Shown here: positions 964 through 38,369 of the stretch, in pieces
Numbering within the stretch: position 1 is the first letter of the stretch
How the letters are laid out: every line of letters begins with the position of its first letter
Assembly (NCBI RefSeq): GCF_003058465.1
Contig: NZ_CP028901.1
Location: 3,286,001 to 3,350,000 of the forward strand
Reading direction: 5' to 3'
Length of the DNA stretch: 64,000 bases
Source: Orrella marina
GTDB taxonomy: Bacteria > Pseudomonadota > Gammaproteobacteria > Burkholderiales > Burkholderiaceae_B
Translations under genes and position numbers: made by a program
Notes under the pieces: model-generated
What the model saw: the letters and a program-made list of their open reading frames with translations, nothing else
What the model was told of the DNA's origin: nothing
Database searches by the model: none

Positions 964-1001
964 CGGGCGCTCCGTGAAGCCTCGGTGTCAGGATCGGGAT
1001 G

Positions 1002-5554: not shown

Positions 5555-5568
5555 CTGGAGGTCGTCCC

Positions 5569-12360: not shown

Positions 12361-15300
12361 TCAGTTGAAATCCACATAGGGGGTCAATCCAGCTGGTTGC
12401 AGCTGCAAGTCTCCCCGCCACGGTTTGAAGAAATATTTCAGGTACACCATCACCCGATTGGGCGCGTAGTTGTCCTGGCTTCTTTGCAGATCAATGGCAG
12501 CGCCCGCTACCCAGTGATTGCCTAACCTGCGCTCGATGGCGCCGCGCAGCGTGTAGCCAAATCCCGTGCCTGTGCTGCCTGTGCTCATGTTCGAGGCCAT
12601 GATGCTGCCCGGGGTGGCGCCTTGACTGATCAGCGCGTTGACCGGTCCTGGCATGGCGCCCATCAGCGGGTAATACGTTTGATCGTTTGTTCTGGCGACT
12701 GACACCGATACGGATCCCTGAATGTAAAACGACCAGTCATCCCAGCGCCGGGCATAGCTAACAGGTAGTCCTAGCGAGGCGTACATCTGCGGGCTGTAAT
12801 AGCCACCTTGTCCAAACGTGAAGTTGCTCAGATCCCGGTCATAGCGCCAGTACATGGCGTTGACCCCGGCAGTCAGCAACTCGTTGGGTTTGTTGATCAG
12901 ACGGCGATAGTATCCGCCCATCAGACGCAGGCGGTTGTTGTCCGCTACGTTCGTTCCGGTGAGCTTGTGATAACCGATATTGGCCCAGACACCATTTTCC
13001 AGTCCCTCATCCCAGCTCAGACTCAGAGTAGCCCCTGTGGCGAGAACGCCTCCCCAGACTGTGCCTGTTCCGGGGTCCGTCGTGCCCGCCAGAGAAAGTA
13101 GCGAGTTTGCCAGCGGACGCCGTGAGACCGTCACGCGCCAGCCCATTTCACCCAGATCACCTTCAAAGTTGACACCCCCCACCCAGTTGGAGACGGCGAA
13201 TGTGGTGGGCGTGTGGCCAATGTCAAACCCCCAGTTCTCACCCTGCCATCCCAGTGCCATTGCTGTGCCTTGAGTGGTCTGTGCGGGCACATTGCTGCAC
13301 CCGGGTAGCGATACGGACTGCCCCGTGGCGGTCTGGCCGTCGAGGATACATGTGCCAAACCGTTCGGTGATCTCGCCATTGCTGCTGGTGTCGAATGAGC
13401 CGGCATTCATGGTGATGTAGTCTGCCCGAAGGAAACCGGTACCTGACTGAACCGGCATATCCAGTTGCAGCATGGTGGTGTTGGCCCGTAGCTGAGACAC
13501 ACCAGGTGTCCCGTCTTGCCTGAACCAGGAATCAGAACTCAGTGTTAGTGTCGGATTGTTCTGCTGGTAGAGTTCTGCTGCATCAGACCGGATGCTACTT
13601 TGAAGCCAGTCCTGGGGTTCGTCAGGCGTACGCATGGCGCGCGTGAAGCTTGAATCATCCAGGGCTGCGGTCGCGTTGGACGGCTCCACGGAGTCAGAAG
13701 TGGTGTCCGGGTCAGAGGGATCGAAGACCGCTGGTCGCAGCAATGGCGAGGATGGCGTCGGGGTTGGCGGCGGAGTGAGAAGCCCAGACGCTACCATGGC
13801 GGTTCGATACAGATCGAGCGCGCCCTGCGGATCATCTGCTGCGATCAGACGGGCGTAGTCTCGATAAACCAGTGGATCCGCTGGGCCTGGGCGTTCGGTG
13901 AGTTTCCTGAAGATGGCAAAGGCCTGGGGCTTGTCGCCAGCGATCGCCAGAATCATCGCCAGCCGTCGCGAAGGCCCAGTCTCTTCGATTGGCACCACTG
14001 GCGGGTTCGCGACCAGACGTTGCCGCACGTCGTTGAGCTTGCCTTGCGCGATCAGCACTTCGAGTTCGCCGAGTCGGGCGTCGATATTGTCCGGTTCTTT
14101 CTTCAGTATTTCCTGGTAAATCTTGAGAGCCTTGGCATCACGGCCAGTCGCGAGTGACCATTCAACCAGCTGGAGCGCGAGCGCCGTGTTTTGTGGGGGT
14201 TGCTCCAGAAGGGCGAATGCACCGTCCACATCGCCCGAATCGTAGAGTGCTTGTGCCTTGGCAATGAGCAAGCGTGTCTTCAGTCGAGTTTGTAACGCGA
14301 TCATATCGTCCGTCCACTGCGCACGCGGCACGGCATCAAGCGCGGTGATTCCCGTTTCCCATTGATCGAGCGACTCCAGCAGCAGGCCGTACGCATAGAC
14401 ACTGATCGGGTCTTTGGTAAATCTGGCCAGATGGCGTTGATAGGCTTGTAATGCCGCCTGGGGCTCGCCTGCCTGCCGAAGGCTGTTAGCCAGACGAAAG
14501 CTCAACCAGGGGTCGCCCAGATCCAGTGCTTGCGCCTGCTCCAGCCATTGAGATGCTTCGAGCCAGTGGCCTTGTGCCTGCGCGGCAAGCGCCTTGTTTT
14601 CCAGATCTGCGACTTGCAAGCCGCGTCGCAAATCAGCCAGGTAGCGCTGTTGAGACGCAGGAAATGATTTGAGTCGCTCCAGGGCGACCGATGGTTCAAG
14701 CGTCGAGAGATACGCCAACAGACCACGTATCGCCGTCGAGTTGGCTGGATCCAGGTCAAAGGCCTGACGATAGTAGCGCCACGCTTGCTCATTCTGGCCT
14801 TGCCCAAGCGCAGTATCACCGAGTCCAACCAGCGCAAACGGGTTCTGAGGGTCCTGCTCATGGGCTTGCTGATACAGTCGGGTGGCGAGCGCCCAGTTCG
14901 ACTTCTCCAGTGCGGTACTAGCCTGATTGAGCAGCATCCAGTACTGTGTCGAGTCGATCAGACTGACCCAGCGCCAGGTCGAGTCGACAAGCAGTTCGTT
15001 TTCTTTGGCGAGCTCGAAGTACTTGAGTGCCTGAGCCCGGTCGTTCATGCGCAGGTACGCCAGCCCGAGGCCCCCTAGCAACTGGGGATCTTCAGGGTAA
15101 GCCTTCACTGCAGCCCTGAGTCTGGAGAGGGCCTTCTCTCCTTCGCCAGCTTCAATCATGTCCAGACCCAGACGGCCGGCCACCCAGACCGGATCGTCGA
15201 GCAATGCGCGCTGGCGACGCAAAATGTCCAGGGCTTCTGTTTCCAGACGGGTTCCTGCGTAGCGCACCACAAAGTCTCCCCACAACGTGGCGGATCGCTC

Positions 15301-16527
15301 GGTGACAGGCAGGGTGCTGAGATACTCAAATTCGCGCGCAGACGCAATCTCGCGCTGACTGGAGATTCTGGAGAGTTCGTGCAGGTACTGCAGACCCTGT
15401 TCAGGCCTGTCATCATCAAAGCTGTAGTTGGCCAGTGCGATCAGAATGTCCGGATGACGGGGGTACTTCTTTAGGAGTGCCTGGAGTTGCTGGTCTGCCT
15501 CCTGCCGGTCAACCTGTTCGCGCCCGCGTAGCCGCCAGTACTCGACCGCCAGATCCACCGTCGGGTAGGCACCCTTGAAGAGTGCGTCATATTCTTTGCG
15601 TGCGTCGCCTACACGCCCGACCGCAGCAAAAAGCCTGGCTTGCGCCAGCAGTTTTTGTGCCTCCTCGGTCGTGAGCTCAACCAGTGCTTTTGCCTGGGCC
15701 AGTGCTTGCGATCCGGGCGCTACTTCCTCAAGGGTCTTGAGATACAGACGGGCCGTCTGGACGTAACCCAGCACCAGAACCAGCCAGGAGTAGGTTTCCG
15801 CGACGATCAGCATGATGCCGAAGAACGCATCGAGCGGGTCATCCAGGTTCAGAGTGGAGCTGTAGCGCCACCAGAGGTAACGGGTCGAGACCGTCAATGA
15901 CAGCACGATCAGCACGAATGTGGAGAATCTTGAAGGGATGCGCTTGACCACCAGTGCCATGACCCACAACAAAGCCACGAATATCGACTGGGCGAGCAGA
16001 CTGAACGGCTGGGTCACCAGCAGGGCGGCAAGCGGAAAGCTGATGATCACGACGCTGCCGTAAATCAGCACCCGGGTGGCCAGACTTGATGTGGCATGCA
16101 TCTGTGATAGCCGCCGCATACTTGCAGCAGACTGAAGGCGGTTCGGGATTCGCCCCAGGAAAGCCAGATAAGTCTGCCGGATCTGCCGGGCAGACTGCCT
16201 GATGCGCTTGCGCAGTCTGGACGCACCTGGCTGGATATGCCGCACGGGCAAGACCGTGACAACCCAGAGAAGTTGCAACAGATAGCGGACTGGATCGGCG
16301 AACTGATAGGGTCGATTGTTCAGATGGGCAAACCACGGATGCATGCGTGCCCTGAGGGCGATCCAGCTCTGACTGTCGAGTCGTAGAAAAAGGTGGGCCA
16401 GAATCATGCCCGCAGCGTAGAGCAGCGAAGTCACGCGTCCCATCTCGCGATTGATACGCGCGCTTTGGTAGGCGGAGTGTATCGCCCCCTGTGATCGATG
16501 ACTCAGAAGGAAATTGCGTCCGTTCAT
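12361..16527 (-). CDS. BcsA(N-terminal)-BcsC chimeric ORF from an in-frame internal deletion
   Basis: From the ATG at 16527, which overlaps the bcsQ stop as ATGA, the ORF encodes 1388 residues. Residues 1 to ~257 match the N-terminal membrane region of E. coli-type BcsA (DPVRYLLQ, VTQPFSLLAQ, SLTVSTRYLWWRYSSTLN, AETYSWLVLVLGY). The next residues (ARLYLKTLEEVAPG) match BcsC from about its residue 85 and continue through TPR repeats to the complete C-terminal outer-membrane barrel. Missing are the BcsA glycosyltransferase and PilZ domains, all of BcsB and BcsZ, and the BcsC signal peptide. The junction is near 15755. In BcsA, what follows these membrane helices is cytosolic, so the TPR/barrel part should not reach the outer membrane. 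I infer a non-functional relic or assembly collapse. Confidence 0.85.
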   Translation of the reverse strand: MNGRNFLLSHRSQGAIHSAYQSARINREMGRVTSLLYAAGMILAHLFLRLDSQSWIALRARMHPWFAHLNNRPYQFADPVRYLLQLLWVVTVLPVRHIQPGASRLRKRIRQSARQIRQTYLAFLGRIPNRLQSAASMRRLSQMHATSSLATRVLIYGSVVIISFPLAALLVTQPFSLLAQSIFVALLWVMALVVKRIPSRFSTFVLIVLSLTVSTRYLWWRYSSTLNLDDPLDAFFGIMLIVAETYSWLVLVLGYVQTARLYLKTLEEVAPGSQALAQAKALVELTTEEAQKLLAQARLFAAVGRVGDARKEYDALFKGAYPTVDLAVEYWRLRGREQVDRQEADQQLQALLKKYPRHPDILIALANYSFDDDRPEQGLQYLHELSRISSQREIASAREFEYLSTLPVTERSATLWGDFVVRYAGTRLETEALDILRRQRALLDDPVWVAGRLGLDMIEAGEGEKALSRLRAAVKAYPEDPQLLGGLGLAYLRMNDRAQALKYFELAKENELLVDSTWRWVSLIDSTQYWMLLNQASTALEKSNWALATRLYQQAHEQDPQNPFALVGLGDTALGQGQNEQAWRYYRQAFDLDPANSTAIRGLLAYLSTLEPSVALERLKSFPASQQRYLADLRRGLQVADLENKALAAQAQGHWLEASQWLEQAQALDLGDPWLSFRLANSLRQAGEPQAALQAYQRHLARFTKDPISVYAYGLLLESLDQWETGITALDAVPRAQWTDDMIALQTRLKTRLLIAKAQALYDSGDVDGAFALLEQPPQNTALALQLVEWSLATGRDAKALKIYQEILKKEPDNIDARLGELEVLIAQGKLNDVRQRLVANPPVVPIEETGPSRRLAMILAIAGDKPQAFAIFRKLTERPGPADPLVYRDYARLIAADDPQGALDLYRTAMVASGLLTPPPTPTPSSPLLRPAVFDPSDPDTTSDSVEPSNATAALDDSSFTRAMRTPDEPQDWLQSSIRSDAAELYQQNNPTLTLSSDSWFRQDGTPGVSQLRANTTMLQLDMPVQSGTGFLRADYITMNAGSFDTSSNGEITERFGTCILDGQTATGQSVSLPGCSNVPAQTTQGTAMALGWQGENWGFDIGHTPTTFAVSNWVGGVNFEGDLGEMGWRVTVSRRPLANSLLSLAGTTDPGTGTVWGGVLATGATLSLSWDEGLENGVWANIGYHKLTGTNVADNNRLRLMGGYYRRLINKPNELLTAGVNAMYWRYDRDLSNFTFGQGGYYSPQMYASLGLPVSYARRWDDWSFYIQGSVSVSVARTNDQTYYPLMGAMPGPVNALISQGATPGSIMASNMSTGSTGTGFGYTLRGAIERRLGNHWVAGAAIDLQRSQDNYAPNRVMVYLKYFFKPWRGDLQLQPAGLTPYVDFN

Positions 16528-17255
16528 GGTCGAGCCTTCACATGCAGCTGTAACCAGGTAGCCAGTGATTGCGCATCCAGTGAGGCACTGCAATCCGGAA
16601 AGGCGCGTGTGACAGGCGTCATCAAGGCCAGTGCTTCATGCACGCATTCATCACGCTTGACCGTCACCGGTAGCAGTCTGTCGTGGTAGCGCGCTGTCCA
16701 GTCGACGATCAGATCGTTGGGCAGATCCCTTGAAGGGTCCTGCATGTTGGCCAGCAGCCGGGCCCTGGCGGGCCAGGATGTTTGTGCTAACAAGATATGG
16801 CATGCCACATCGACACTTGCAACCACGATCCGCAGGTCAAGGACAGTTTCAAGGGCTTCTTGCGTTGCCAGATGACAGGGCACACCGATCAGTATCCAGT
16901 CTGGTGACGGTTGCAGTCTGACGAGATCCTTGAGCCAGTTGAGCGAACCCGTCTGTGCCGTTGCCTGGAGTGATAAATCATGGTCAATGAGTCCAAACCG
17001 TCCGAAAGGAATCAGCGTTAACCCTTGTGTGATCTCGAATGCATGCTCGTTCCAGGACTCTCCGATTTGCTGGCCATGCGCCCAGCCAGTCGGATCTTCA
17101 AACGATACGTTAAAGTGCAGTCGGAGCATGTCGCTCGTGTTCAGATCGATGACCAGTACCCGCTGACCGGAGTCCAGTAAGGCGTCGGCGAGCATGGCAA
17201 CCATGCTGGTGGTGCCAACTCCACCCCGCAGCCCTTGTATCCCGATCGCTCTCAT
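16524..17255 (-). CDS. bcsQ: BcsQ, MinD/ParA-like ATPase of the class II cellulose locus
   Basis: 243 residues, similar along its length to E. coli BcsQ: the variant Walker A GLRGGVGTTS near residue 8, LRLHFNVSFEDPTGW, LIPFGRFGL, and DVACHILL. BcsQ is an SRP/MinD-type ATPase that forms a cytosolic complex with BcsR and BcsE and helps assemble and localise the cellulose secretion machine. The start overlaps the bcsR stop as ATGA, and its own stop overlaps the start of the BcsA-BcsC chimera, so the operon is tightly coupled. It differs strongly from the second BcsQ at 37075-37845, which is a more typical ParA. With its native BcsA deleted it may be idle or may serve the other synthase. Confidence 0.9.
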   Translation of the reverse strand: MRAIGIQGLRGGVGTTSMVAMLADALLDSGQRVLVIDLNTSDMLRLHFNVSFEDPTGWAHGQQIGESWNEHAFEITQGLTLIPFGRFGLIDHDLSLQATAQTGSLNWLKDLVRLQPSPDWILIGVPCHLATQEALETVLDLRIVVASVDVACHILLAQTSWPARARLLANMQDPSRDLPNDLIVDWTARYHDRLLPVTVKRDECVHEALALMTPVTRAFPDCSASLDAQSLATWLQLHVKARP

Positions 17256-17491
17256 GAGCCCTCCGTCTCGACCAAGGGCCCGCGTGATCTGCTCGAGCGA
17301 TGAGCATGCAGATCAACCTCGGCTAGCAGCGGCCAGCGGATGAGAGCATCTTCGCGTGCCTGCTGTGTGGCAATGTCGACGTAGTGGAACTGTCCGCCCG
17401 GCAGATGCTGTTTAAGCGAAACCAGATCATCAGCAGGTCGAAGCGTGCTGCCGGTATGGAGTTCGAAGACGGAATCAGGAGCGTTGTTCAT
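17252..17491 (-). CDS. bcsR: BcsR-like cellulose biosynthesis regulator
   Basis: 79 residues. The segment DDLVSLKQHLP and the later ALIRWPLLAEV line up with E. coli BcsR (DIVALKQAF and ALKRWPLLAEF), which is otherwise only 62 residues. BcsR binds BcsQ and is part of the cytosolic BcsRQE vestibule on BcsA. The ATG overlaps the bcsG stop (ATGA), and the stop overlaps the bcsQ ATG (ATGA). The C-terminal 15 residues (HRSSRSRGPLVETEGS) are extra and basic. The family call rests on this short but specific match and on the bcsG-bcsR-bcsQ context. Confidence 0.85.
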   Translation of the reverse strand: MNNAPDSVFELHTGSTLRPADDLVSLKQHLPGGQFHYVDIATQQAREDALIRWPLLAEVDLHAHRSSRSRGPLVETEGS

Positions 17492-19178
17492 TGTGGGTAC
17501 TCAATCCAGTTTCTGCCACCCAGGCGGATGAACGGCGAGTCCTGGTAGCGCATCACGATCGTGCCGTCATTTTCGTTGATGTGCTCGGTCTCGGGCAGCC
17601 CCTTGATCAGCGCTTCCCAGTTGATACGGGTCTCTTCGAAGGTGTTCTCGTTCAGCACTCTGGCAATCAGATCAGACAGCGCCAGAAAGCTGGTCGGCCC
17701 GGTGACATGAACAGGCGAGACGGGTGATGTGTCGGCAGTGCCGATCAGACGCACGCCCACTGGTACGTGAGTGATGTCATAGGTCGGAATCTCGCGCATG
17801 CCGGCAATCTGCATCTTGTCGGCTTTGAGTGCTGCACCATGCTCAGGAATAAAGATGACCATCACCCTGCGATCGCTCTGTTCGAGTTCGGTCATAAACT
17901 GCATGATCCCGTCGAGCAATTTCTCTGCCCGGGGCCGATAGGGTGCGGTGCGGCCTCCGCCGTCAGCAGTCGCTTCACGGTTGCCGTCATGCAGTGTGAT
18001 GGTGTTGTAAAGCAGTGCGACCCGGTCTGCGTTCTCGTTCAGACGCTTTTGCCACCAGTTGCTCAGGGTGCTGTAGTCGTCCCAGATCGGGGATCCATCG
18101 AACCCGGTCAGGCTCGGTCGCATGTCGGTCGGGATGTAAGGTGCAGGCAGGTTGCCGTTAGTCCGGATCTCGTCCAGAAACCCTTGAAATTTGCCATCGT
18201 GGTTCAACGCCGCTTCTGATGTGAAGCCAAGGGTGTTCAGGGTCTGGAACAGATAGCAGGCCGAGTCACCTTCCTTGTAAAGATCGGCGTGGGGCGTCTG
18301 ACCGCAGTTTGCCCTGAGCATGCGCAAGACAGCGGGACCGCTGTACGACGTTGAAGAGCTGAAGTTGTCAAAGATGACATCCATGTCCTTGAAGATGGGG
18401 TGAATAGTCATGTCCACCTCCTGCAGGTCGGACCAGGCCAGTGAGCAGATGCTGATGACCAGGATGTCAAAGGGCGGTCCTGACGTCGTTGAAGGAAAGT
18501 TCACGCGACGCGTGCTTTCCCGCTTGTAGAAGTCGCTTAGATAGGAGTTGAGGACGTCGTCGGTGGGTTTGCCTGTGGACGCAGCAGGTCCTTGCGCAAC
18601 AACCTCTGGCATGTCGGCGGCACCTGCGCCCGTGTTCGGGGCTATCGCACGCTGGGCCTGGGCGATGGTTGTGATGGCAGGCTGGGTGATCCAGGTCGGT
18701 AGTGTGACGTACTGGTTCAGTGCGATGCCTGTCAGGGTCAGCACGGTCAGCGTCGTGAGTCGTAGCCACTGGTAAAGATAGAGGTATACGACCAGGGTGA
18801 TGAAACCTGCTCCGACGAGTTGCCAGTTGATGAAACGTTCAATCAGTTCAAGCAGGTACCAGAGCGAGAAGCTGAAGACCTCAGGTTGCGCCAGAAGTCG
18901 TTCGATGGGCGGGTACCAGGAGTCGTGGTACAGCAGGGCGATCGCGAACGGGATGGCGATGATGTGACGGATCCTGTTGAGCCAGCCATGGCCTAACGGA
19001 AACAGGAGTGCCGCAGCAAACAGGATGTTGTAAAAACGTTGAACTGCAGGTAGCCATTCCAGAAAAGCAGCAGCTTGATCAGAAAATAGAAGTTCCAGTG
19101 CCCAAGTCCGGTCCAGCGGACAGTCGTGTCCGGTAGCGTCCGCGAGTTCACTTCGTTTGATGGCATGTTGTCCTGCAT
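17488..19178 (-). pseudogene. bcsG: bcsG, cellulose phosphoethanolamine transferase, frameshifted
   Basis: The N-terminal piece (19178 to about 19037) contains GHWNFYFLIKLLLFWNGYL, as in E. coli BcsG. The frame then breaks at a five-base A/T run (19032-19036), and the next ~100 residues continue in the -1 frame (FYNILFAAALLFPLGHGW, then ERFINWQLVGAGF) into the periplasmic catalytic domain. That domain has the nucleophile region STSYSGPAVLRMLRANCGQ, the LLYNTITLHDGN segment and PEHGAALK. Adding one base to the run gives a 563-residue protein, close to the 559 of E. coli. BcsG transfers phosphoethanolamine from phospholipid to cellulose. Whether the break is real or a sequencing error cannot be decided here. 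Confidence 0.88.
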
Positions 19179-19443: not shown

Positions 19444-21066
19444 CTAAACGAGTGACAGGCGGACACGCTGCGGCGCATAGCGAATGGCATTCTCGCCCGG
19501 TGCTGACTCGGTAGCCGGGTCTGTCGATGCTTGTGGCACATCATCAAGCTGGCTCATTCTCTCTTCGATATGCTGAAGCGCGCCTTGAATGCTGGACAGA
19601 TCTTCGAACACAGTGTGGTTGATGAAGATTTCGTCAAACGGCAGGCGAAACAGTTGTTGCAAGACGGCGGGTACTACCTCGGGTAAACATCCGTGCAGAA
19701 AAACGTAGACCTCGTCGGCAACACTGCAGGCCAGATCTTCAAAACGCCTTATGTTCAGCTGGTTCAACGCCTGCTGCGCAGAAAGCCCGGGCACTGGCTG
19801 CATCGAGACCAGCAGACCTAGAAACTCCATCGACTTTTTGTTCGCTTTTGATGCGCCATTCTTGGCCCCGGTCTGTCTGGAGTCTTTCAGATCCTGTTTG
19901 ATTCTGGCGTGAACTCGGGTGAGGAATGTCGATGGTGCGACGACCCCATGAACTCCTCTGATATCCTCTTCGGGGAACAGTGAATCGACGGACTGGCTTA
20001 GCTCCCGCGTGTAGCGCACCGTCTGGATATTCTCCAGCAAGGACTTGAATCGCGTGTAGCTAAGATCCGTACCAAGCACGAGCGTGGCGCCGCAATCGAG
20101 CAGATTCTGTTCGTCTCGCAGACGCAGTTGACTGATGCTCTCTCGCACCACCAGTTTGATTAATGGTCCACGCTCGCGTCGCAAGGAATGGATGAGTCGA
20201 GCGATCTCGGGGAGTTGCTGAAAGCTGTTCAATGCAAATATGACTGTTGCGTTGACTTGCTGTCGGGCCCGTTCATACACCTGCTCCCGAGAGTCTATGA
20301 TCTCCCAGCCAGCTTCGTGGATTTGCCCAAAATCCTTCAGCACGGATCGCTCGATGATGTATCGATTACCATCGGCCACCGTTGGCATCGGGTCCTGTGC
20401 GGTCATATCCGCTTGAACGTGTAGTTCGTCGACTTTCTGAATGATGCTGAGGTTTCGGACACCTGTCACACCGAGTGCCGAGCGCCAGTATGCGCAACGA
20501 TATTCCAGCTGCGTCTCGGAGATTCTCGTTAGATGCACGAGCCCGGCCAGCAAATCGTTGTTCTCCAGCATGGCACTGCTGTTGCGCGTCAGGTTGCCGC
20601 CTGTACTCAGGATGAGCGCGGCACAGTCATTCTTTGCAATCCATTGTTGCGCGCTGGCAAGTATGGCACGACGGTGTTCCTGGCTTATCTGGCTAGTGAC
20701 ACTCTCTGGCAGCATCAGGATGATGGTGCGCTGATGCGGCCGAATTGTTGCATCAAGATCATTCGTCAGTGTTTTAAGTGCAGTCAACGACCCTTCGATA
20801 AAACGAAATGTTCTGAGATCGTGCGCCGAAATGGTGTCCTGCATTCGCTGAACTGATGCCGATGCATCCGATGTTGTGATCAGTACTCCTCGAGTGCTGA
20901 CATCAGCTTTTCTGAGGATCTGACGCAGCAACAGTGTGCAGTCATCCCACTCATCGAAATTGATCAGATAGATGGCACCTGTGCGCAGGCACTCCATTTC
21001 GACGGGGAGTCCGTCGATGGTGATTCTGTAAAGAAAATCCGGAGTGCTACTAGTGTTGTCTGGCAT
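19444..21066 (-). CDS. bcsE: BcsE, c-di-GMP-binding cellulose regulator
   Basis: 540 residues, close to E. coli BcsE (523). The best-conserved block is LIHSLRRERGPLIKLVVRE followed by LRLRDEQNLLDCGA. This is the GIL-domain region containing the RxxD c-di-GMP motif (Arg315, Asp318). BcsE sits on the cytosolic side of BcsA with BcsR and BcsQ and raises cellulose output when it binds c-di-GMP. The residues upstream form the degenerate NTPase/REC-like part. It lies in the same direction as bcsG, not divergent from the synthase genes as in E. coli. The preceding 240-bp spacer carries two sets of short tandem repeats, so it may have its own promoter. Confidence 0.9.
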   Translation of the reverse strand: MPDNTSSTPDFLYRITIDGLPVEMECLRTGAIYLINFDEWDDCTLLLRQILRKADVSTRGVLITTSDASASVQRMQDTISAHDLRTFRFIEGSLTALKTLTNDLDATIRPHQRTIILMLPESVTSQISQEHRRAILASAQQWIAKNDCAALILSTGGNLTRNSSAMLENNDLLAGLVHLTRISETQLEYRCAYWRSALGVTGVRNLSIIQKVDELHVQADMTAQDPMPTVADGNRYIIERSVLKDFGQIHEAGWEIIDSREQVYERARQQVNATVIFALNSFQQLPEIARLIHSLRRERGPLIKLVVRESISQLRLRDEQNLLDCGATLVLGTDLSYTRFKSLLENIQTVRYTRELSQSVDSLFPEEDIRGVHGVVAPSTFLTRVHARIKQDLKDSRQTGAKNGASKANKKSMEFLGLLVSMQPVPGLSAQQALNQLNIRRFEDLACSVADEVYVFLHGCLPEVVPAVLQQLFRLPFDEIFINHTVFEDLSSIQGALQHIEERMSQLDDVPQASTDPATESAPGENAIRYAPQRVRLSLV

Positions 21067-21305: not shown

Positions 21306-22589
21306 TCAGCGTGTCGGCAGGTTATCCATCCAGGATTGCTCGTGCGCAGAGATGGGCATTTGCAAGACGCGCTCGGGAATCTCCCAGAAAACTACTTTTG
21401 GTGGTGCTTGCCGGTACTCATTCGATGACAAGTATTTCTGTGCGGAGCCCCAGAAATCTCCACCGTCCATGGCAAAGCTAGGCACGGGTGTCTGTAAGGC
21501 CATTTCGAGAAACGGTACGAATGAAGATGTCCTGGAAAACGAGGTTCCGATCAAAGCTGCCGAGGGCAGGTTGGTGTCACCGAACAGGTCCAGTGCAGTG
21601 TCATTCGTGTCGCTCGTACCGTCGCCCACATCAGACTCGGTAAGGGAGTTCAGTGTCTGGATGGGGTGAATTTCGATTGGCTCAACGACATCCGGTTTGG
21701 GTCGTAGCGATAGTGGCAACCAGTCGATGCCTGCCAGACGAACCAGGTCGCCATCGCGTGGCTGTCGTTTGCCCAGGCTGAGCGCATAAGACTGTCTGGG
21801 CGTGAGATCCATATTCAGCAGATCTACTGTGCTGGCGATTGCCTGTGCCGATCCGTGAGCGCCGGTTTGAGTCCAGTGTGTGTCCGTTTCAAGGAATGCC
21901 TGTTCATTGCTCGTTTGACCGTTTCTCTTGTCGCTCGCTTCGTTAATCGCCGTCAACCCTTCCAGAAGCGACGTGTGATGCACGCCAGCGTCGGTCAGGG
22001 CCTGCTCCCAGCGTGCGAGACGGTCTGCGCTCGAGTGTGGGCGATAGACGTTACACAGTTGTGCCTGCTGGACCCGGCTCTTGTCCGGGACGGTGGCCAC
22101 CACCAGTTCTGTCCCATTGGCTTTGAGGAGATCGCGTACTCTGATCACCGTCTCCAGGCGTCTTGCAGCATTCTGTGTGGCGTATGGGTACACCGACAGC
22201 TCATCAGTCAGGAAAAGCCAGTTTTTACAGCCTCGCCGAACGCGTGGCCCGAGGGATCCCGTGATGAGCCAGCTCGCCGCGCGCTCTGCGTCAGCCAGGG
22301 CAGTGGGCAGAGGCGTATCGGCGATTTCGTCTGCCAGATGCAGAGCACTCTCACCGCTGAGGACCCCTTTGAGGCTCCATGTCGAAGCGTTTAAATCGAT
22401 CCGGCCGGTTGCAAGACTCCAGGCGATCGAAGCCGCGCCAGCCACAAGCGTGAGCAGCATGACAAGTCCGGCAATCCGGGCGGCAGACTGCGAGGGTTGT
22501 GCCGGCTGCTCATCATCAGTACCGGAGTTGGTCTGCCTCAGGTTTTGAGGGGAGACGTTCTTGACTGTGTTCATCAGGGCGGTCTTCAT
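21306..22589 (-). CDS. wssI: WssI/AlgX-like polysaccharide O-acetyltransferase
   Basis: 427 residues starting at the ATG at 22589, which follows GGGAGAGG with good spacing; the in-frame extension to 22832 only overlaps wssH. One N-terminal hydrophobic segment (residues 38-60) anchors or exports an SGNH-like domain of the AlgX/AlgJ type. It has a D-x-H motif at Asp236-His238 (DTHW) and a Ser nucleophile at about 350 in IGTSFSR. In Pseudomonas wss operons WssI acetylates cellulose in the periplasm, using acetyl groups passed across the membrane by the MBOAT protein WssH. Its place at the end of wssFGHI fits this role. It is the last gene before the 240-bp spacer to bcsE. Confidence 0.85.
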   Translation of the reverse strand: MKTALMNTVKNVSPQNLRQTNSGTDDEQPAQPSQSAARIAGLVMLLTLVAGAASIAWSLATGRIDLNASTWSLKGVLSGESALHLADEIADTPLPTALADAERAASWLITGSLGPRVRRGCKNWLFLTDELSVYPYATQNAARRLETVIRVRDLLKANGTELVVATVPDKSRVQQAQLCNVYRPHSSADRLARWEQALTDAGVHHTSLLEGLTAINEASDKRNGQTSNEQAFLETDTHWTQTGAHGSAQAIASTVDLLNMDLTPRQSYALSLGKRQPRDGDLVRLAGIDWLPLSLRPKPDVVEPIEIHPIQTLNSLTESDVGDGTSDTNDTALDLFGDTNLPSAALIGTSFSRTSSFVPFLEMALQTPVPSFAMDGGDFWGSAQKYLSSNEYRQAPPKVVFWEIPERVLQMPISAHEQSWMDNLPTR

Positions 22590-22603
22590 GATATGCCTCT
22601 CCC

Positions 22604-24010
22604 TTAGAACTGAAAATAAAGGAAAGGCACGGCCTGCCGGCTTGCAATCAGCGCCATGGCCAGAACGAACCCGAACACAGGCCACAAATCCGCGAACGCC
22701 AGTACTGGGCCCGGCGTAAGTCGTCGTGCGGTATCGCGTGCCAGCGGTGCGACGATACATGCCAAGCCCAGTGCGATCGCCACCAGTTGTGCAGACTGCA
22801 ACGTTGTTCTGAGAGCCTCGCCCAGGGCCCATCCCTGCATTCCGATCTGTGCTCTGTATAAAGACAGCGCACTCTCAAAGTCGGTTGCGCGAAACACCAC
22901 CCATGCCATGCAGACAAACAGCAAGGTGCCTGCCCTGGAAATCAGCCCTGGTATCGCCGGCAGGCTCGAGCGGCTCCAGATCCGGGCGGTGGCCAGTGCG
23001 AACCCATGCAAAAGCCCCCAGACCAGAAAATTCCAGTTGTCGCTGCCGTGCCACATTCCGGCAATCGCCATGGTGGTGATCAGGTTGGCGTATGTGCGAA
23101 TAGACCCCTTTCGGTTTCCGCCAAGCGGGATGTACAGATAGTCCCGGATCCAGGATGAGAGCGAGATATGCCAGCGACGCCAGAAGTCCTGAATACTGTT
23201 GGCCAGATAGGGGTGGTTGAAGTTCTCCGGGAACCGGAACCCCAGCATCTGTCCCAGGCCGATGGCCATGGCACTGTAGCCGGCAAAGTCAAAGAAAAGC
23301 TGCAACGAATAAGCCAGGCAAGCGAGCCAGGCATCCATGAATGTTGGTTCAGGCAGGGCAAAGGCCGTTTCAACCAGCGGGGAGAGTGTGTCGGCAATCA
23401 GCACCTTCATGCACATACCGACCATGAATCGGCGCGCGCCCAGTGCAAAGCTGTTCCAGCAAAACGGACGACTGGCGAGCTCTCGCTCGACCCACTCGTA
23501 GCGGATGATCGGACCGGCAATCAGTTGACCGAACATCGCAAGGTAGGCGCCAAACCACACAAACCGTCTCTGTGCCTGAACTTCCCTGCGGTAGACATCC
23601 ACGAGATAGGAGATCGATTGGAGGATAAAAAACGACAGGCCGATCGGCAGCACAATCTGCTGCCAGGCCACCGACATCCCGCCTGCATAGACGATCAGGT
23701 CACTAAGCGTTTCTATCAGTATGTTGATGTATTTAAACCAGAACAGCGTCGCGGCGTTGATGACAATTAACAACACCAGCACCCATTTGCGTGAGCGATT
23801 GTCAGCCAGACGATCCAGGACCAGACCACCTGCCCAGGCTAGCGCGGTGACACCGATCAGCAGTAGTAGGAAGGCTGGACTCCACCAGCCATAGAAGATC
23901 CAGCTTCCGATCAGCAACGTGGCATTGCGCGCCGGCTTTGGGCAAAGCGCATAGATCGCCAGAAACGCTGGCAGAAAGAGCGTCAGGAACTCGATCGAGG
24001 AGAAGATCAT
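22604..24010 (-). CDS. wssH: WssH/AlgI-like MBOAT acyltransferase
   Basis: 468 residues with about ten hydrophobic segments. It has the AlgI-type MBOAT hallmarks: NFNHPYLANSIQDFWRRWHI, SSWIRDYLYIPLGG, and the catalytic His in AGMWHGSDNWNFLVWG. AlgI/WssH proteins move acetyl groups from cytosolic donors across the inner membrane for O-acetylation of an exopolysaccharide. It starts 8 bp after wssG and is followed 14 bp later by wssI. In alginate operons this protein works with AlgX/AlgJ; here the neighbouring bcs genes point to cellulose as the substrate. Confidence 0.92.
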   Translation of the reverse strand: MIFSSIEFLTLFLPAFLAIYALCPKPARNATLLIGSWIFYGWWSPAFLLLLIGVTALAWAGGLVLDRLADNRSRKWVLVLLIVINAATLFWFKYINILIETLSDLIVYAGGMSVAWQQIVLPIGLSFFILQSISYLVDVYRREVQAQRRFVWFGAYLAMFGQLIAGPIIRYEWVERELASRPFCWNSFALGARRFMVGMCMKVLIADTLSPLVETAFALPEPTFMDAWLACLAYSLQLFFDFAGYSAMAIGLGQMLGFRFPENFNHPYLANSIQDFWRRWHISLSSWIRDYLYIPLGGNRKGSIRTYANLITTMAIAGMWHGSDNWNFLVWGLLHGFALATARIWSRSSLPAIPGLISRAGTLLFVCMAWVVFRATDFESALSLYRAQIGMQGWALGEALRTTLQSAQLVAIALGLACIVAPLARDTARRLTPGPVLAFADLWPVFGFVLAMALIASRQAVPFLYFQF

Positions 24011-24018
24011 CGCAAGAC

Positions 24019-24696
24019 TTAGTTCGCGACAGAATCTTTGATGAAAAACAGACTGCGAGCGGGATCGCCTGGCACCAGGAACAGGCTGTAACGCTCACCA
24101 GCTTGCAACGTACCCATATTCAGTGGTTCACCAGTCGGCGTGCCCGAGCAGGTCAGTTGCACCTGTAACGGTACCGGATTGATCTGACGGCGTGCCCATT
24201 TGCCCACTTCACCGTTTTCAAAGAGGAACACCTGTCTGCCTGCGACCTGGACTCCCGGTTGTTTGCAGTCTTCATTCAGGTCGTAGAACGCGACTGATGC
24301 CCGCACGGCCGTGAATCCGTCGCCTTCCTCACGGACTTCACGGATCTGCAGTTTCTGGTCAGAGTCAAATCCGAGCACCGTGACGAACTCGCCAGGCAGG
24401 ATCTTGACCTGGACTGATTCGGTATCGGTGCCCAGCCTGAGCGTGCCGCCAATACTGGTCCCCCCAGTGACTGGCATGTAAGGACTTGCTCGGGACGAGG
24501 TAGTCAGCTCCAGCGAGGCATTCGAGTCTGCCGCCTGCACGCTGAGTGTGTCATCCGTGCTTCCATTGACGAATCGCACGAAAGCAGAGTCCTGGGCCGG
24601 GCCGGTCGGGTAGAGTTTGATTTCTGTGGCCTGAAGGCCAGATCCCGTCGACAGGCTCAGGACGCCAGTGAGGGTGGCGGCAAAAGCAGATTTCAT
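24019..24696 (-). CDS. wssG: WssG/AlgF-like acetylation accessory protein
   Basis: 225 residues with a signal peptide ending near ATEIKLYPTGP. The rest resembles AlgF, a periplasmic beta-rich protein needed for alginate acetylation (AFVRFVNGS, then a late LFFIKDSVAN). WssG is the cellulose-operon counterpart. The ATG overlaps the wssF stop as ATGA, and wssH follows 8 bp later. The protein probably links the MBOAT transporter and the periplasmic acetyltransferases. Sequence conservation in this family is low, so the call leans on gene order. Confidence 0.78.
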   Translation of the reverse strand: MKSAFAATLTGVLSLSTGSGLQATEIKLYPTGPAQDSAFVRFVNGSTDDTLSVQAADSNASLELTTSSRASPYMPVTGGTSIGGTLRLGTDTESVQVKILPGEFVTVLGFDSDQKLQIREVREEGDGFTAVRASVAFYDLNEDCKQPGVQVAGRQVFLFENGEVGKWARRQINPVPLQVQLTCSGTPTGEPLNMGTLQAGERYSLFLVPGDPARSLFFIKDSVAN

Positions 24697-25355
24697 TTCT
24701 TTTCTAGTTTCTGAACGGTCGGTGATTCAAGTAGTTCTTGTGTCAGTGCTTTACCCCAGGACTGATAGCCTGAGCGGGTGAAGTGCTGACCATCGCTGGT
24801 TGCCCATTCTCCTGGCTTGGAAAGCTGTGTGGAATCGATATATTCACATGGTGCCACGTTGGACGCGAGAAATGCTGAAACCTGCCTGGTGCGAACTTCG
24901 GTCTTGTGGAACTTCTGTCCTTCTGTGCCCCACGGAGGTCCAATCCAGACGCACGCAGTGCCAGCTTTAGCAATTGCTTGCGTCAAGCCAGTGACTTGCT
25001 GCCAGGCCCAGGTTTTCGGGAAAACGGGCTCCTTGTAGGCGCCCAGGGTATCTCCCATCACGACGACCAGAAGATTGGGCTTGTATCGCGCGATCATCTG
25101 GTCAATTTCGATGGTCGACGTGCTCGCTGGCAGCACCTTGACCTTGCCGCCTGGCTCACGTTCAGCCGCGCCACATGTTCCTACTGTTGGCTTGAGCCAG
25201 TCACTTGGGTTGGTTCCACACACACCAAATGTGCGCACCTCGGCGCCCTGCTCCTCAAGCCCTGAATGCAACGAATCGATCAGATAATAGGGGACAGTCA
25301 GATGGCTGTCCCCGACAATCAGAATCGATAGCCCTGCTAACGCTGAAGTCAACAT
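24693..25355 (-). CDS. wssF: WssF-like SGNH-fold protein of cellulose acetylation
   Basis: 220 residues. A short hydrophobic N-terminus leads into GDSHLT, the SGNH nucleophile motif (Ser17), and a late D-x-x-H motif is seen at Asp188-His191 (SDGQHF). This is the layout of SGNH hydrolases and acyltransferases. In wss operons WssF lies between bcsC and the alg-like acetylation genes and contributes to cellulose acetylation. The start follows GAGGGGAAG. The nucleophile lies very close to the predicted signal segment, so the export signal may be uncleaved or the start may be further upstream; no better start was found. Confidence 0.8.
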   Translation of the reverse strand: MLTSALAGLSILIVGDSHLTVPYYLIDSLHSGLEEQGAEVRTFGVCGTNPSDWLKPTVGTCGAAEREPGGKVKVLPASTSTIEIDQMIARYKPNLLVVVMGDTLGAYKEPVFPKTWAWQQVTGLTQAIAKAGTACVWIGPPWGTEGQKFHKTEVRTRQVSAFLASNVAPCEYIDSTQLSKPGEWATSDGQHFTRSGYQSWGKALTQELLESPTVQKLEKK

Positions 25356-25380: not shown

Positions 25381-28300
25381 TTAACGACCGTAGGTGATTC
25401 CGTATGGTGACCGATAAGGCTGAACTGGTAAATCAAGTAAAACGTTGCGCTGTGGCTGGAAGTAGTATCGAAGGTAAATACCGCCCGCCCACTCCTGATA
25501 GTCCTGTGCGTTGTCGGCACCAAATGTTGCACCAAACACCAGGTTGGGGTTGAGCCGGTACTCGGCTGATGCTCTCAGGTTATAGCTAAATCCGGTCTTG
25601 CTCTGGCCCGGATAATAGCCGCTACCAAACAGGTTGTTGGCGCCCGCCATCTGCTCTGCATACGCCTGCAACTCCGGATTGTTCGGAAATATGGGCGCAT
25701 CAGACTGTCTGAACTGCTGCATCCCGACTGCACCGTCAAACCTGAAACTCAGCGGACCAGAACGGTGCGCCCAGGATACGGGCACTGACAGGGCGTAATA
25801 CTGCTGGGGACTGAAGTAACCGCCACTGCCGTAAGTGAAATAGCCCAGATTCTTCTGATAGAAGGTCCCGTTCAGGTTGACACCGGCCATCAGCCTGGTG
25901 TCTGACTCTTCAATGACCCGGAAATAGGCACCCAGATTGAACTCGGTGCGCTGGTTGGTTGCCACATTCTTGCCTCTGAGGCTGTGCCAGGCAGCAGAAC
26001 CGTAAATGCCGGCTTTGCCGAAATCTTTAGAAAGAGTCAGGCGGGCGCCCGTGGCCATGACGCCACCCCATTCGAGTCCGAGATCATCGTAGCGACGACC
26101 TGCAAAGGACAGCATGCTATCGGTTACGGGCCGACGTGAAATGTCCAGGCGATAACCCATCGTCGCGGCATTGTCGAGCGTGCCACTGAAAAGCGCTCCG
26201 CCTGTGAAGTTTGTCTCCTGAAATCCGATCGGCGTCACACCTGCGTCGAACTGCATGCCGCGCAGGCTATAACCAACGGACAGCCCAACACCGCTTTGAC
26301 TCGAGTCATTAACCCGCAACGGGCTGTACTGCAGCAGATTGGCAGGACCGACGTAGGTTGGCACACTGCCGATCGCACCAGCGTCGAGCGTGACGGGGGT
26401 GACTCTGACATTCATTCGGCCATTCCCAACGGGAAATGATGCTTCCATCGGCGCCTGGACTTCTGTCAGTTGACTGGTGCCCGATTCGCCACTCCGGCTG
26501 CGGAATTCCACGCCCCCAATGGCTTGCGCGCTGCGCTGCTCGTACAGCGTCTCGAGTTCTCGTGCCAGATCAGATGAAGTTGCCGCAGCGACCTGGGTCG
26601 GTTGTGTGGCAAATGGATTGCCGGTTGTGTCTGACGGCTCTGTGCCCGCGGTGCGTGCGGACTGTGTGTCGGGGGCTTCGAGTGCTAACGCTCGCTCCAG
26701 CAAGGCGACTGCGTCTCCGGTTCGGCCCGAGTCCCTGGAGATGCTGGCAGCCGAGACCAGCACATCCCTGTTGTCGGGAGCGAGTTCGACCGCTTTCTCG
26801 GCTTCTCGAGCTGCTTGACGGTCATTGCCCATCTGCTGGGCAAGCAAAGCCAGCCCCAGGTGAACTTGCGGGTTGTCAGGGTCGGCAGCAAGCAGCTTTT
26901 CGTAGATGGCGAGCGCTTTTTCCGGCTGGCCGGAAGCAGCATACATGCGGGCCAGTGCACCCTGGGCCGCCAGGTCATCGGGGCGACGCTTGAGCACCGG
27001 AGCAATGACATCGTAGGCAGCTGCGAGTTCGCCCCTGGCGGTCAACTGGTCTGCCTGTCTGACCCGATAGCCGTCAGCGAGCGCATCGACTTGTTCACGT
27101 TGGGATGCCGTCAGCTTGCTTTCCTGCAACTGGCGCAACATGAGTGAAGCGTCCAGATCTTGTCCGGAGGCCAGCAACAAGCCCGCATAAGCGATGGTCG
27201 CGTTCACCCCGCGAGTGCCCCCTTCATTACGGATAGGCTTGAGCAAGGCGAGTCCGCGACTGGTTTCGCCGATATCGACGTATGCGCGGGCGACTGCATT
27301 GGTGACAGGCCAGTCATTGCCTGCATCGCTACGAATCTGTTCGAGCCACTTGATGGCTTGGGCTTTCCGTCCAGAGCGAGCCATGTTGACTGCTTCCCTG
27401 ATCTGCAGCTGACGATTTGCGGTCGCGTAAAGCTGATCCATGGGCGCGGTGCGCAGATCCGCTGGAATACGATCCAGCATTCGCAGCGTCTGGTTCCAGT
27501 TCTGTTCTTCCGATGCCATGATGGCACTGATGTAAAGCACTTCCGGATTGTCGGGACTGGCCTTGACCAGGTCATTGATGATCTGGTCAGCCTCCTGGGT
27601 GCGGCCAGCGTCACGGTAAGTCTGAGCCAACTCGTATCTCACCCATGGGCTCTCCGGATTCGCCAGTAGCGCCTGCTCCAGCAGTCTGCTGGCCTCGGCC
27701 GGATCACCAGAAAGTCTGGTGGCACGACTCAATCCAAATAGTGCCTGGGAATCACCTGGCTTGCGCTTGAGGATGGCTCGATAGGCATTGGTCGCCTGAG
27801 CAGTCTTGCCTTCCTCAAGCAGAATGTCCGCAAGCACAATGTTGGCAGCCACCTCCCCAGGAGCGAGTCGCGTACTCTGTGTTGCAATGCGGCGTGCCTG
27901 GGTCAGGTCGCCTGCATCCAGAGCCGCCTGTGCTTGATCCACATTTACCCAGTAGCGGGCCGTATTGAGGGACGACTGCCAGGCGGCATTGCCGCGGCGA
28001 GCTCGTGTGAGGTAGTCCAGTGCCAGCTTCCAGTTACCTTCCCGCATGGCTAGCACGCCCATTCCGCCGAGTGCTTCAGAGTCATTCGGGCGCTGGGTCA
28101 GTATTGCCTCAAACTCTGCTCTGGCAGTTGCCGTGTTGCCTGCATCAATCTCCTTGAGTGCGGCATTTGCGCGCTGGCGAAGCGGGTCGGGGGGCGCCTT
28201 GGGGGCGGGCTTGCTTGCCTCGGCGGTAATGGCCTCACCTTCTTCGAGTAGTTCGCGAATTTCCGTGTCATCGGGATGCTTGTTCAGGTACTCACGATAG

Positions 28301-29013
28301 AGTGGCTGCACTGATGCTTGCGGGGGGCTGAGCCAGATCAATGCATCGCGCCAGCTTTCAGCCGCGTCATTACCGATTTCCGAGTTGGCGGACAGTCGGG
28401 CCAGACGGGCAATGCCTTCGGTCCGGGTTTCTTCCTTGCGAGCCAGATGCCGGGCAAGCGCCAGTTCGAGATTCGCATCTTCAGGTGACTGTTTTTGAAG
28501 ACGCCTGAGGTTATCGATCGCGACATCCATACCACCGGGCGTATAGCCAAGCAACGTGTAATAGTCCCTGCCGACTGATCCCACGGGCTGCTGCCCCTGA
28601 AAGATCTGCTCGTACTTCTGAACTGCGGTGTCGACATCAGACGATGCAACCGCCTGACGCACATCTTCCAGGAGTACCTTGCTTTGTGCGGAGGCCAGCT
28701 TGATGTCCTGCCGGAGCTGGACCACGAGCGGGCTGGAGGGATTGGTTTGTTCCAGTCGCTGCAGGTAGCTGCGTGCACGGTCGATGCGACCAGCGCGCAG
28801 ATCGATCGTGGCAAGTCCGTATAGTCCTTGCGGATTGTCGGCACTGACTTCGAGCAGCTTGTTCCAGGCCTCTGCTGCGCGCTTGCTGTCGTCCCGTTGC
28901 TGCCAGAACAGGCCGCGCTCAATCAGCGCCTGGTTAATGTCGTTCTGCGCAAAACTGGCCTGGCTGAGTAACGCGACAAGAACGCCACAGGCTATCCGGT
29001 TGTGTTTAAACAC
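25381..29013 (-). CDS. bcsC: BcsC, cellulose export TPR/outer-membrane barrel protein
   Basis: 1210 residues. A cleavable signal peptide ends at about SQASFAQ (residue 23). Many TPR repeats follow to about residue 800, forming the periplasmic scaffold, and then a C-terminal BcsC porin domain (VGYSLRGMQFDAGVTPIGF, FTYGSGGYFSPQQYYAL). BcsC exports nascent cellulose across the outer membrane. The start overlaps the bcsZ end by 22 bp. This is the intact BcsC of the window; the chimeric ORF at 12361-16527 carries a second, more E. coli-like copy of the same TPR/barrel architecture without its signal. Its sequence is clearly different, so it is not a recent duplication. Confidence 0.93.
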   Translation of the reverse strand: MFKHNRIACGVLVALLSQASFAQNDINQALIERGLFWQQRDDSKRAAEAWNKLLEVSADNPQGLYGLATIDLRAGRIDRARSYLQRLEQTNPSSPLVVQLRQDIKLASAQSKVLLEDVRQAVASSDVDTAVQKYEQIFQGQQPVGSVGRDYYTLLGYTPGGMDVAIDNLRRLQKQSPEDANLELALARHLARKEETRTEGIARLARLSANSEIGNDAAESWRDALIWLSPPQASVQPLYREYLNKHPDDTEIRELLEEGEAITAEASKPAPKAPPDPLRQRANAALKEIDAGNTATARAEFEAILTQRPNDSEALGGMGVLAMREGNWKLALDYLTRARRGNAAWQSSLNTARYWVNVDQAQAALDAGDLTQARRIATQSTRLAPGEVAANIVLADILLEEGKTAQATNAYRAILKRKPGDSQALFGLSRATRLSGDPAEASRLLEQALLANPESPWVRYELAQTYRDAGRTQEADQIINDLVKASPDNPEVLYISAIMASEEQNWNQTLRMLDRIPADLRTAPMDQLYATANRQLQIREAVNMARSGRKAQAIKWLEQIRSDAGNDWPVTNAVARAYVDIGETSRGLALLKPIRNEGGTRGVNATIAYAGLLLASGQDLDASLMLRQLQESKLTASQREQVDALADGYRVRQADQLTARGELAAAYDVIAPVLKRRPDDLAAQGALARMYAASGQPEKALAIYEKLLAADPDNPQVHLGLALLAQQMGNDRQAAREAEKAVELAPDNRDVLVSAASISRDSGRTGDAVALLERALALEAPDTQSARTAGTEPSDTTGNPFATQPTQVAAATSSDLARELETLYEQRSAQAIGGVEFRSRSGESGTSQLTEVQAPMEASFPVGNGRMNVRVTPVTLDAGAIGSVPTYVGPANLLQYSPLRVNDSSQSGVGLSVGYSLRGMQFDAGVTPIGFQETNFTGGALFSGTLDNAATMGYRLDISRRPVTDSMLSFAGRRYDDLGLEWGGVMATGARLTLSKDFGKAGIYGSAAWHSLRGKNVATNQRTEFNLGAYFRVIEESDTRLMAGVNLNGTFYQKNLGYFTYGSGGYFSPQQYYALSVPVSWAHRSGPLSFRFDGAVGMQQFRQSDAPIFPNNPELQAYAEQMAGANNLFGSGYYPGQSKTGFSYNLRASAEYRLNPNLVFGATFGADNAQDYQEWAGGIYLRYYFQPQRNVLLDLPVQPYRSPYGITYGR

Positions 29014-30197
29014 CCTTTCCCCCAGGTCAGAGATAACGTTCCGTCAGGTCGGAAACGGTACATATTGTTGAGCCACCCCAGTCCGAAGAGGCTAAGGACA
29101 TAGTCGTAATAGGGCGGTTGCTGGTCGATACTGGCTTCAAGTCCAGCAGTCCTGAGTAACGCTGAGTTCACGCGCTGATACTGTTTCTCCAGTAAGTCAG
29201 GTTGCCGGTTGGCGACAAAGTAAGGTAGTAGTGCCGCAGAGAATCCGAATGGTCCATTGCGATAAAGCTCACCAGTCTGGGTGTTGACGACTTCAGGGGG
29301 GAACTGCTGGCTGTCATTCCGGGTTGCAGTAATCATCCCGTCAAGCGACTTCAATATCCGACTGTAAAGCGGATCGCGGTGATCAGTCATGCCAGCCCAG
29401 AGGTAGGTACGAATGGCGTCATAGCTGCCATCGGGGCCTTTTCTGGGATCGACCATGAACGACGGTGGTGATTGCTTTGCCTGGTAAGTGGTCCAGTTTG
29501 GTGCAAAGCCCTTTGGTGACGTTTTGGCGATCAGGGTCGCTGTGTTATCCGCGATTTTCGACCAGGGGCCATTGGGTCGTTCGAGTGCAAGGCGCCGTAA
29601 CAATGGGACAGGCATGTAACTGGCATTGAGTTGCCAGGTTTGCTCTTCCGGATTGAAGAACCACTCGCGGCCAGGCAGAAGCATCTCACCAAGCCCGGGT
29701 AACGAATCGACCTCCTGTGCCTCGATGAGATCCAGCAGATTGTGAGCCTGCCTCGTGTAAGTGGGTTCGCTCCAGAGGCGGCCGGCTTCGAGCAATGCGT
29801 ACGCGTACCAGAGATTGGCATCCGATGCGGAGTTTGGGTCTAGCACCCGCCAGGATCCGTCGTCGGCCTTGCCCCATATCCATGCCGGCAATTGGCGGGT
29901 GGGGTCGCCACCGCTCAGGTTGTCGATCGACCAGTTCCACATCCGGTCGAACTGGTCGCGGTCGTCGGCAACCAAGGCAAAGAACATGCCGTAAGACTGT
30001 CCTTCTGACGAACTGTGCTGCATCGGTGTACTGGCGTCCAGCACCCTGCCGCTGTCCTGGATGAAGTGGTTCTCGAACGCACTCCACAAAGCCCACTCTG
30101 CCTTCTGGCAGGTCGTGCTCGTAGCGGACAGCGCTGGCTGCAGTACCATCATCACCAGAAAACTACCAAGTGCTCCGATCTTGCTTGCTCGCATCAT
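28992..30197 (-). CDS. bcsZ: BcsZ, periplasmic endo-1,4-beta-glucanase (GH8)
   Basis: 401 residues with a signal peptide ending near PALSATST. The GH8 catalytic acid is Glu65 in SSSEGQSYGM, and the conserved Asp126 lies in SASDANLWYAY; a further conserved Asp is in DGSYDAIRTYLW. BcsZ cleaves cellulose in the periplasm and tunes polymer length and output. It starts 7 bp after the second bcsB and overlaps bcsC by 22 bp. The length is slightly above the 368 residues of the E. coli enzyme. All active-site positions are kept, so it is probably functional. Confidence 0.94.
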   Translation of the reverse strand: MMRASKIGALGSFLVMMVLQPALSATSTTCQKAEWALWSAFENHFIQDSGRVLDASTPMQHSSSEGQSYGMFFALVADDRDQFDRMWNWSIDNLSGGDPTRQLPAWIWGKADDGSWRVLDPNSASDANLWYAYALLEAGRLWSEPTYTRQAHNLLDLIEAQEVDSLPGLGEMLLPGREWFFNPEEQTWQLNASYMPVPLLRRLALERPNGPWSKIADNTATLIAKTSPKGFAPNWTTYQAKQSPPSFMVDPRKGPDGSYDAIRTYLWAGMTDHRDPLYSRILKSLDGMITATRNDSQQFPPEVVNTQTGELYRNGPFGFSAALLPYFVANRQPDLLEKQYQRVNSALLRTAGLEASIDQQPPYYDYVLSLFGLGWLNNMYRFRPDGTLSLTWGKGCLNTTG

Positions 30198-30204
30198 GTG
30201 CTCC

Positions 30205-32595: not shown

Positions 32596-32606
32596 TGCTT
32601 TATTAC

Positions 32607-37845: not shown

Positions 37846-38369
37846 TAGCGGCTTAAGCGACTGAACAGTGAGCGGATAGAGCCGGCAGGCTCTGGTGCCG
37901 CGGCAGGCGGTGGTGTGACTGGTTGTTCAGGATGCGAGGCAAGTGGTGCTCTGCGGCCCTCGAGTCGCTGGAACAGGGCACGGAGATCCCCGGACGTCTC
38001 GTGTGCGGACTGTGACTGCGCAACGGCAGGTGGCTCTACCCGGGCGTGCGAGGGAGGAGCGAACTGCGTAGCTGGCGCAGTATCCCTGTACTCAGCCGAT
38101 GCGACCGGAAACAACGGTTTTGGGGCAGCCGAGGATGTCGCAGCAGTACTGGACTGAGGAACAGAGCTGAAGGGTCGTGGCAGGGGGGCACGTGATGTGA
38201 CCGGCGTCACGGGCTCAGGTGCATCGGATTGAACATGAATACGCTGAAATACCGGCCACCGTTCACGGGTTGCCCGGTTTTGCTCGGTCTCGTAGATTTC
38301 CTGATACTGATCTGTGTTCTTCTCGCCGAACATGGCAAAAAGCTTGGTGACATCTTCCGATTTGCTCAT
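37845..38369 (-). CDS. bcsP: BcsP-like proline-rich cellulose accessory protein
   Basis: 174 residues, mostly a Pro/Ala/Ser-rich disordered region between short ordered ends. The N-terminus carries DVTKLFAMFGEK. The C-terminal part carries two copies of a short motif, DLRALFQRLEG and SIRSLFSRLSR, spaced about 40 residues apart, the second ending the protein. Proline-rich partners of BcsD (BcsH, BcsO, BcsP) use short motifs to dock on BcsD filaments. The position between bcsD and bcsQ is that of betaproteobacterial bcsP. The name rests on this position and composition; sequence identity cannot be judged for such a protein. Confidence 0.7.
   Translation of the reverse strand: MSKSEDVTKLFAMFGEKNTDQYQEIYETEQNRATRERWPVFQRIHVQSDAPEPVTPVTSRAPLPRPFSSVPQSSTAATSSAAPKPLFPVASAEYRDTAPATQFAPPSHARVEPPAVAQSQSAHETSGDLRALFQRLEGRRAPLASHPEQPVTPPPAAAPEPAGSIRSLFSRLSR

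Follow-up and report, generated by a model that had tools for sequence, protein, structure and literature searches.

A BcsA'-'BcsC reading frame in Orrella marina, probably the relic of an Escherichia coli-type cellulose operon

In the genome of Orrella marina (assembly GCF_003058465.1), one uninterrupted reading frame joins the N-terminal region of the cellulose synthase BcsA to the greater part of the export porin BcsC. The frame lies in a stretch of 64,000 nucleotides (contig NZ_CP028901.1, positions 3,286,001 to 3,350,000), which is called the window below and whose numbering is used for the features of the locus. The question is whether such a frame is the remainder of a broken operon, an error of assembly or a new protein; an initial annotation of the window had offered all three readings. 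According to the results presented here, the first is the best supported. We consider it highly probable (about 0.85) that the fusion is the relic of an Escherichia coli-type cellulose operon (bcsE-G-R-Q-A-B-Z-C) after an internal bcsA-bcsC deletion of about 5.4 kb, probably a recent one-off event.

The fusion frame contains no internal stop codon, and it is still open upstream to 16593. The NCBIfam profiles were matched to a 1410-aa reading, which carries 22 additional N-terminal residues. Positions 6-255 of the BcsA profile NF008558 correspond to residues 27-281 of this reading, and the BcsC profile NF008520 matches from its position 76 at residue 276 onward. The in-frame chimera of the initial annotation is thus borne out. 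According to the alignment with the closest relatives, P0001 for BcsC and P0013 for BcsA, the join is located between residues 260 and 261, and the BcsC part begins at residue 95 of P0001, close to the values of about 257 and 85 proposed at first. Residues 259-260 (Ala-Arg) suit both parents, so the break point is not located more finely than the interval in Table 1. The codons at the junction were also compared with those of the relatives, which differ there and therefore give no exact length for the matching stretch.

The BcsA part is identical to P0013, its best match, at 187 of 260 residues (72%). The NF008558 match and the hydropathy analysis indicate that the N-terminal region and the first four membrane segments of BcsA are present: a weak segment is observed at 30-50, and four segments are observed between 153 and 253 after overlapping windows were merged. 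The catalytic part is absent. The motif scan found no DDG, TED or QxxRW in the fusion, and GT2 and PilZ gave no Pfam match in it. In the BcsC part, many TPR matches are retained, and the barrel domain of the BcsC export porin is complete (PF05420 positions 1-335 of 336, 370 bits). Nothing in the fusion corresponds to residues 1-94 of P0001; thus, the signal peptide and the first repeat (TPR#1) of BcsC are missing. BcsB and BcsZ are also gone from the fused locus. The losses listed at first, namely glycosyltransferase, PilZ, BcsB, BcsZ and the BcsC signal peptide, are confirmed.

Twelve stretches were fetched from 11 high-scoring genomes, out of 100 genomes of the family with a match of any strength. 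BcsA residue 261 and BcsC residue 95 were both located in nine of the stretches (eight genomes, G224 giving two), and bcsA and bcsC are separate in all nine. The distance between the two residues is 5437-5504 bases in eight stretches, in agreement with the 5-6 kb suggested at first, and 4348 bases in the ninth (L059), which has no bcsZ match. In L055, L056 and L058, one or both sides were not placeable. In G118, a strong match outside the fetched set, the two sides share a contig, at widely separated positions (82544-86236 and 227626-228450). The E. coli-type bcs operons of the family (L048-L054, L057 and L059) agree with the Orrella marina locus in the kinds and order of genes on either side of the break; the most complete of them, in L048 and L049, are arranged AlgI-AlgJ-bcsE-bcsG-bcsQ-bcsA-bcsB-bcsZ-bcsC. 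They differ from the Orrella marina locus in that bcsA and bcsC are separate, with bcsB between them and, in all but L059, bcsZ as well.

The genome is a single contig of 4,227,194 bases, 99.99% complete with 0.26% contamination. In a whole-genome search, a glycosyltransferase-bearing BcsA, BcsB (two copies) and GH8/BcsZ (one copy) were found solely in a second, complete bcs operon, which begins 9 kb from the fusion in the same window. One extra BcsA match, at 892414, is weak (E 3.6e-4, 30% over the 99 residues 278-376). As the core genes of the genome are the copies of the second operon plus this weak match, the core of the first operon was lost and not moved, and a transfer to another place in the genome was rejected. 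The initial annotation had not mentioned the second operon, which adds to its picture of the locus.

The closest database protein, P0001, is a 1222-residue BcsC encoded on a 5158-base metagenome contig of the Joint Genome Institute (JGI). Past the join, it agrees with the fusion at 1124 of 1128 residues, the differences being at 360, 870, 959 and 1119; ahead of the join, it retains a BcsC N-terminus of its own, in which residues 11-29 form a hydrophobic segment. As a near-identical population carries an unfused bcsC, the deletion is probably recent. The same protein could be taken to mean that some 5.4 kb between bcsA and bcsC were passed over during assembly and that the true operon is complete, and the case is judged from one assembly. 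However, the genome is a single contig with the completeness and contamination given above, only two residues are common to both parents at the join, and the bcsG lesion described below seems to be common to a metagenome copy, so the locus would be decaying in nature too. Direct repeats of at least 25 bases in 12000-38500 amount to one pair, inside the two bcsB genes, although one that extends into the lost DNA would escape such a scan. Nothing observed points to the assembly collapse considered by the initial annotation, and we regard it as unlikely.

Searches for the same junction were performed at several levels. The database search scored the 7992 candidates sharing most words and gave 114 matches, none of which spans the junction, as judged from tabulated lengths, domains and coverage (84% at the highest) and from alignment of some of the sequences; the matches on the BcsA side are BcsA proteins. 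The initial annotation had proposed to look for the junction in related genomes. It is absent from the eight other genomes of the genus, which gave no barrel match for the fusion query and weak matches to the TPR part in four, and among the matches listed for 268 genomes of the family, a single match across the join occurs only in the strain's own genome. A named-genome search with a single-protein query, which finds only close relatives, gave 17 stretches that fit the pattern, none of them confirmed. E. coli genomes gave no match by megablast, as expected at that distance. By tblastn, 189 plasmid records match, and the 20 listed cover residue 241 or 250 to residue 1386 or 1387, which is the BcsC side. 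Conservation of the junction in more than one lineage, as a functional gene fusion would show, was thus not found. Among the 120 BcsZ matches listed of 5532, none is on a 5158-base contig like that of P0001. No report of a BcsA-BcsC fusion was found in the literature searched, and the exact phrase 'BcsA-BcsC fusion' occurs in no paper there, most subscription journals being outside its coverage.

The genes upstream of the fusion show a mixed state. The initial annotation described bcsG-R-Q as coupled to the fusion; bcsR and bcsQ appear intact, as does bcsE, and the bcsQ stop codon and the first codon of the fusion overlap, whereas bcsG is frameshifted. All four full-length relatives (P0116-P0119) align to the bcsG DNA of the window in two frames, and the switch follows residue 49 of the relatives (69 in P0117). 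The main frame has 157 open codons upstream of its GTG, with no start codon among them. The nearest database bcsG, P0115 (374 aa, JGI, four member sequences), is 98% identical, has the same start point, differs from the window bcsG at four of the first 370 residues, and ends early with a different tail, which is shared by P0123 (263 aa). We take this as a 5' bcsG lesion common to the population and a second, 3' lesion in the database copies; it is possible, though unlikely, that a contig simply ends at that very codon. BcsF was not recognised between bcsE and bcsG in the window; in L048, a 62-aa frame without Pfam match is present there.

In another genome of the family, G126, a broken E. coli-type bcsC was observed (L056, 14027-16160), in pieces 440-615 and 762-1222 with an internal gap. 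No other bcs query exceeded 50 bits in the 19.4 kb fetched, and another BcsC is present on contig C33. The assembly consists of about 210 contigs, which makes it weaker evidence of decay. Decay of the E. coli-type bcs operon may not be unique to the Orrella marina genome.

A close relative with a separate gene, a lost core and a neighbouring lesion are the features of a relic, and all three are observed here. We propose that the operon was already losing function by the bcsG frameshift, with a complete operon next door, before the core was deleted. A single deletion, probably between short matching stretches encoding Ala-Arg, would then have kept the frame by luck, which is expected in one of three cases by chance. 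A fusion protein, if produced, would span the membrane four times, with both ends in the cytosol. BcsC requires its signal peptide to reach the periplasm. Without it and without the repeat that docks to BcsB, the repeats and barrel of BcsC would be left behind on the cytosolic side, and the product would be neither synthase nor export channel. According to PMC11379886, TPR#1 of E. coli BcsC makes all the BcsB contacts, and the N-terminal domain of E. coli BcsA is located at the cytosolic face. The simplest expectation is that the fusion product is inactive and perhaps unstable. Several points weigh against a relic. Expression and a residual role are conceivable, since no stop interrupts the frame, the end of bcsQ overlaps its start codon, and the upstream genes bcsE, bcsR and bcsQ appear undamaged. 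P0001 is on just 5158 bases, and its bcsA, bcsB and bcsZ neighbours are outside view. A common species origin of P0001 and P0115 is deduced from near-identity, the matching stretch at the junction is two residues only, and the deletion is read from assembled sequence.

The same open frame, bcsQ overlap and intact bcsE, bcsR and bcsQ would also suit a protein with a new function, in the form of a cytosolic TPR scaffold anchored to the membrane, whose BcsA N-terminal domain could bind BcsQ, BcsR, BcsE or BcsG; the E. coli domain co-purifies with BcsG (PMC11379886). However, the fusion was seen in one genome only in the genus and family searches above, the near-identical relative P0001 is unfused, and BcsG itself is frameshifted. 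A barrel in the cytosol would be expected to misfold. The membrane-TPR protein scavenging the BcsRQE complex that was suggested at first thus gained no positive support, and a functional protein appears very improbable. It is likewise very improbable that the fusion is expressed as an inner-membrane protein that has a TPR arm in the cytosol, still recruits BcsR, BcsQ, BcsE or BcsG through its BcsA N-terminal domain, and thereby alters how the neighbouring second operon works, perhaps by competing for accessory proteins that both share.

Table 1. Features of the two bcs regions and the genes between them (window coordinates).
Feature	Coordinates	Strand	Basis or remarks
BcsA'-'BcsC deletion fusion	12361..16527	-	1388 aa; open frame, profile matches, alignment to relatives
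BcsC part	12361..15747	-	TPR array minus signal peptide and first repeat; complete BCSC_C barrel domain
Junction	15747..15753	-	Alignment to P0001 and P0013
BcsA part, residues 1-260	15748..16527	-	N-terminal region and four hydrophobic segments; without catalytic motif
bcsQ	16524..17255	-	Intact; profile matches
bcsR, 79 aa	17252..17491	-	PF10945
bcsG, frameshifted near 19035	17488..19178	-	N-terminal piece 18993-19178; main piece listed 17488-18744
bcsE, full length	19444..21066	-	PF10995 7-511 of 513
Four genes between the bcs sets, downstream of the second operon	21306..25355	-	ALGX-domain gene, DltB/AlgI-like gene, two with weak matches
Second, complete operon (bcsP, bcsQ, bcsA, two bcsB, bcsZ, bcsC)	25381..38369	-	

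The BcsA of the second operon carries DDG, DCD, TED and QRIRW and a PilZ domain match. Judged from these genes, the strain can probably still make cellulose. The two tandem bcsB genes (30205-32595 and 32607-35057, minus strand) are 40% identical over the aligned stretch. The four genes between the bcs sets are probably for polymer acetylation, and the cellulose of the strain is perhaps acetylated; homologues of the first two, under our own labels AlgI and AlgJ, are also located directly upstream of bcsE in L048 and L049. Scans of the window with Rfam and for tRNA gave nothing, and promoter-like and terminator-like sites number 7 and 12 against 5.1 and 9.7 expected. Other genes were observed in the window. 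Next to the second operon, the protein encoded at 39777-42926 (plus strand, 1049 aa) combines PLD-like, helicase and DUF3427 domains. At 51910-53301 (plus strand), three overlapping frames include one with a weak partial major facilitator superfamily match that does not reach the cut-off; they may represent a broken transporter gene. At 109-6552, on both strands, circularly permuted ATP-grasp (two genes), Alpha-E and transglutaminase genes are present.

Other in-frame fusions within bcs operons are known. Natural BcsA-BcsB and BcsZ-BcsC fusions are described for Zymomonas in PMC7112194, and gene fusions and pseudogenes in Zymomonas bcs operons in PMC8088579. In the database, P0044 (1122 aa, 47 member sequences) is a BcsQ-BcsA fusion. 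These fusions join adjacent genes, and P0044 keeps the domains of both proteins, whereas the present locus has lost bcsB and bcsZ and retains bcsA and bcsC in truncated form. A BcsB-BcsC fusion has been engineered for structural work (PMC11379886). A further case is the database protein P0010 (1358 aa, one contig), in which BcsA is likewise joined in frame to BcsC, with positions 1-486 of the BcsA profile and 277-1157 of the BcsC profile. It is only 38% identical, has other break points and keeps most of the glycosyltransferase domain; it is either an independent event or an assembly chimera. As its break points are different, such deletions, or assembly chimeras, recur, and only those that keep the frame appear as long proteins. 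In invasive Salmonella, stop codons in bcsG and bcsC are reported (PMC6611641). Cellulose operons decay there too by lesions in structural genes, which are point lesions and not a core deletion.

As a relic, the fusion means that one of the strain's two cellulose operons is being lost, which would matter little. With cellulose probably still made by the second operon, selection on the first would be relaxed. The fusion scores above the NCBIfam BcsC cut-off (1091.5 against 858 bits); therefore, a pipeline may annotate the frame as BcsC and predict a cellulose system of the E. coli type, which would be unable to work. Should P0010 prove real and not an artefact of assembly, the existence of two unrelated BcsA'-'BcsC frames would point to recurrent bcsA-bcsC deletions.

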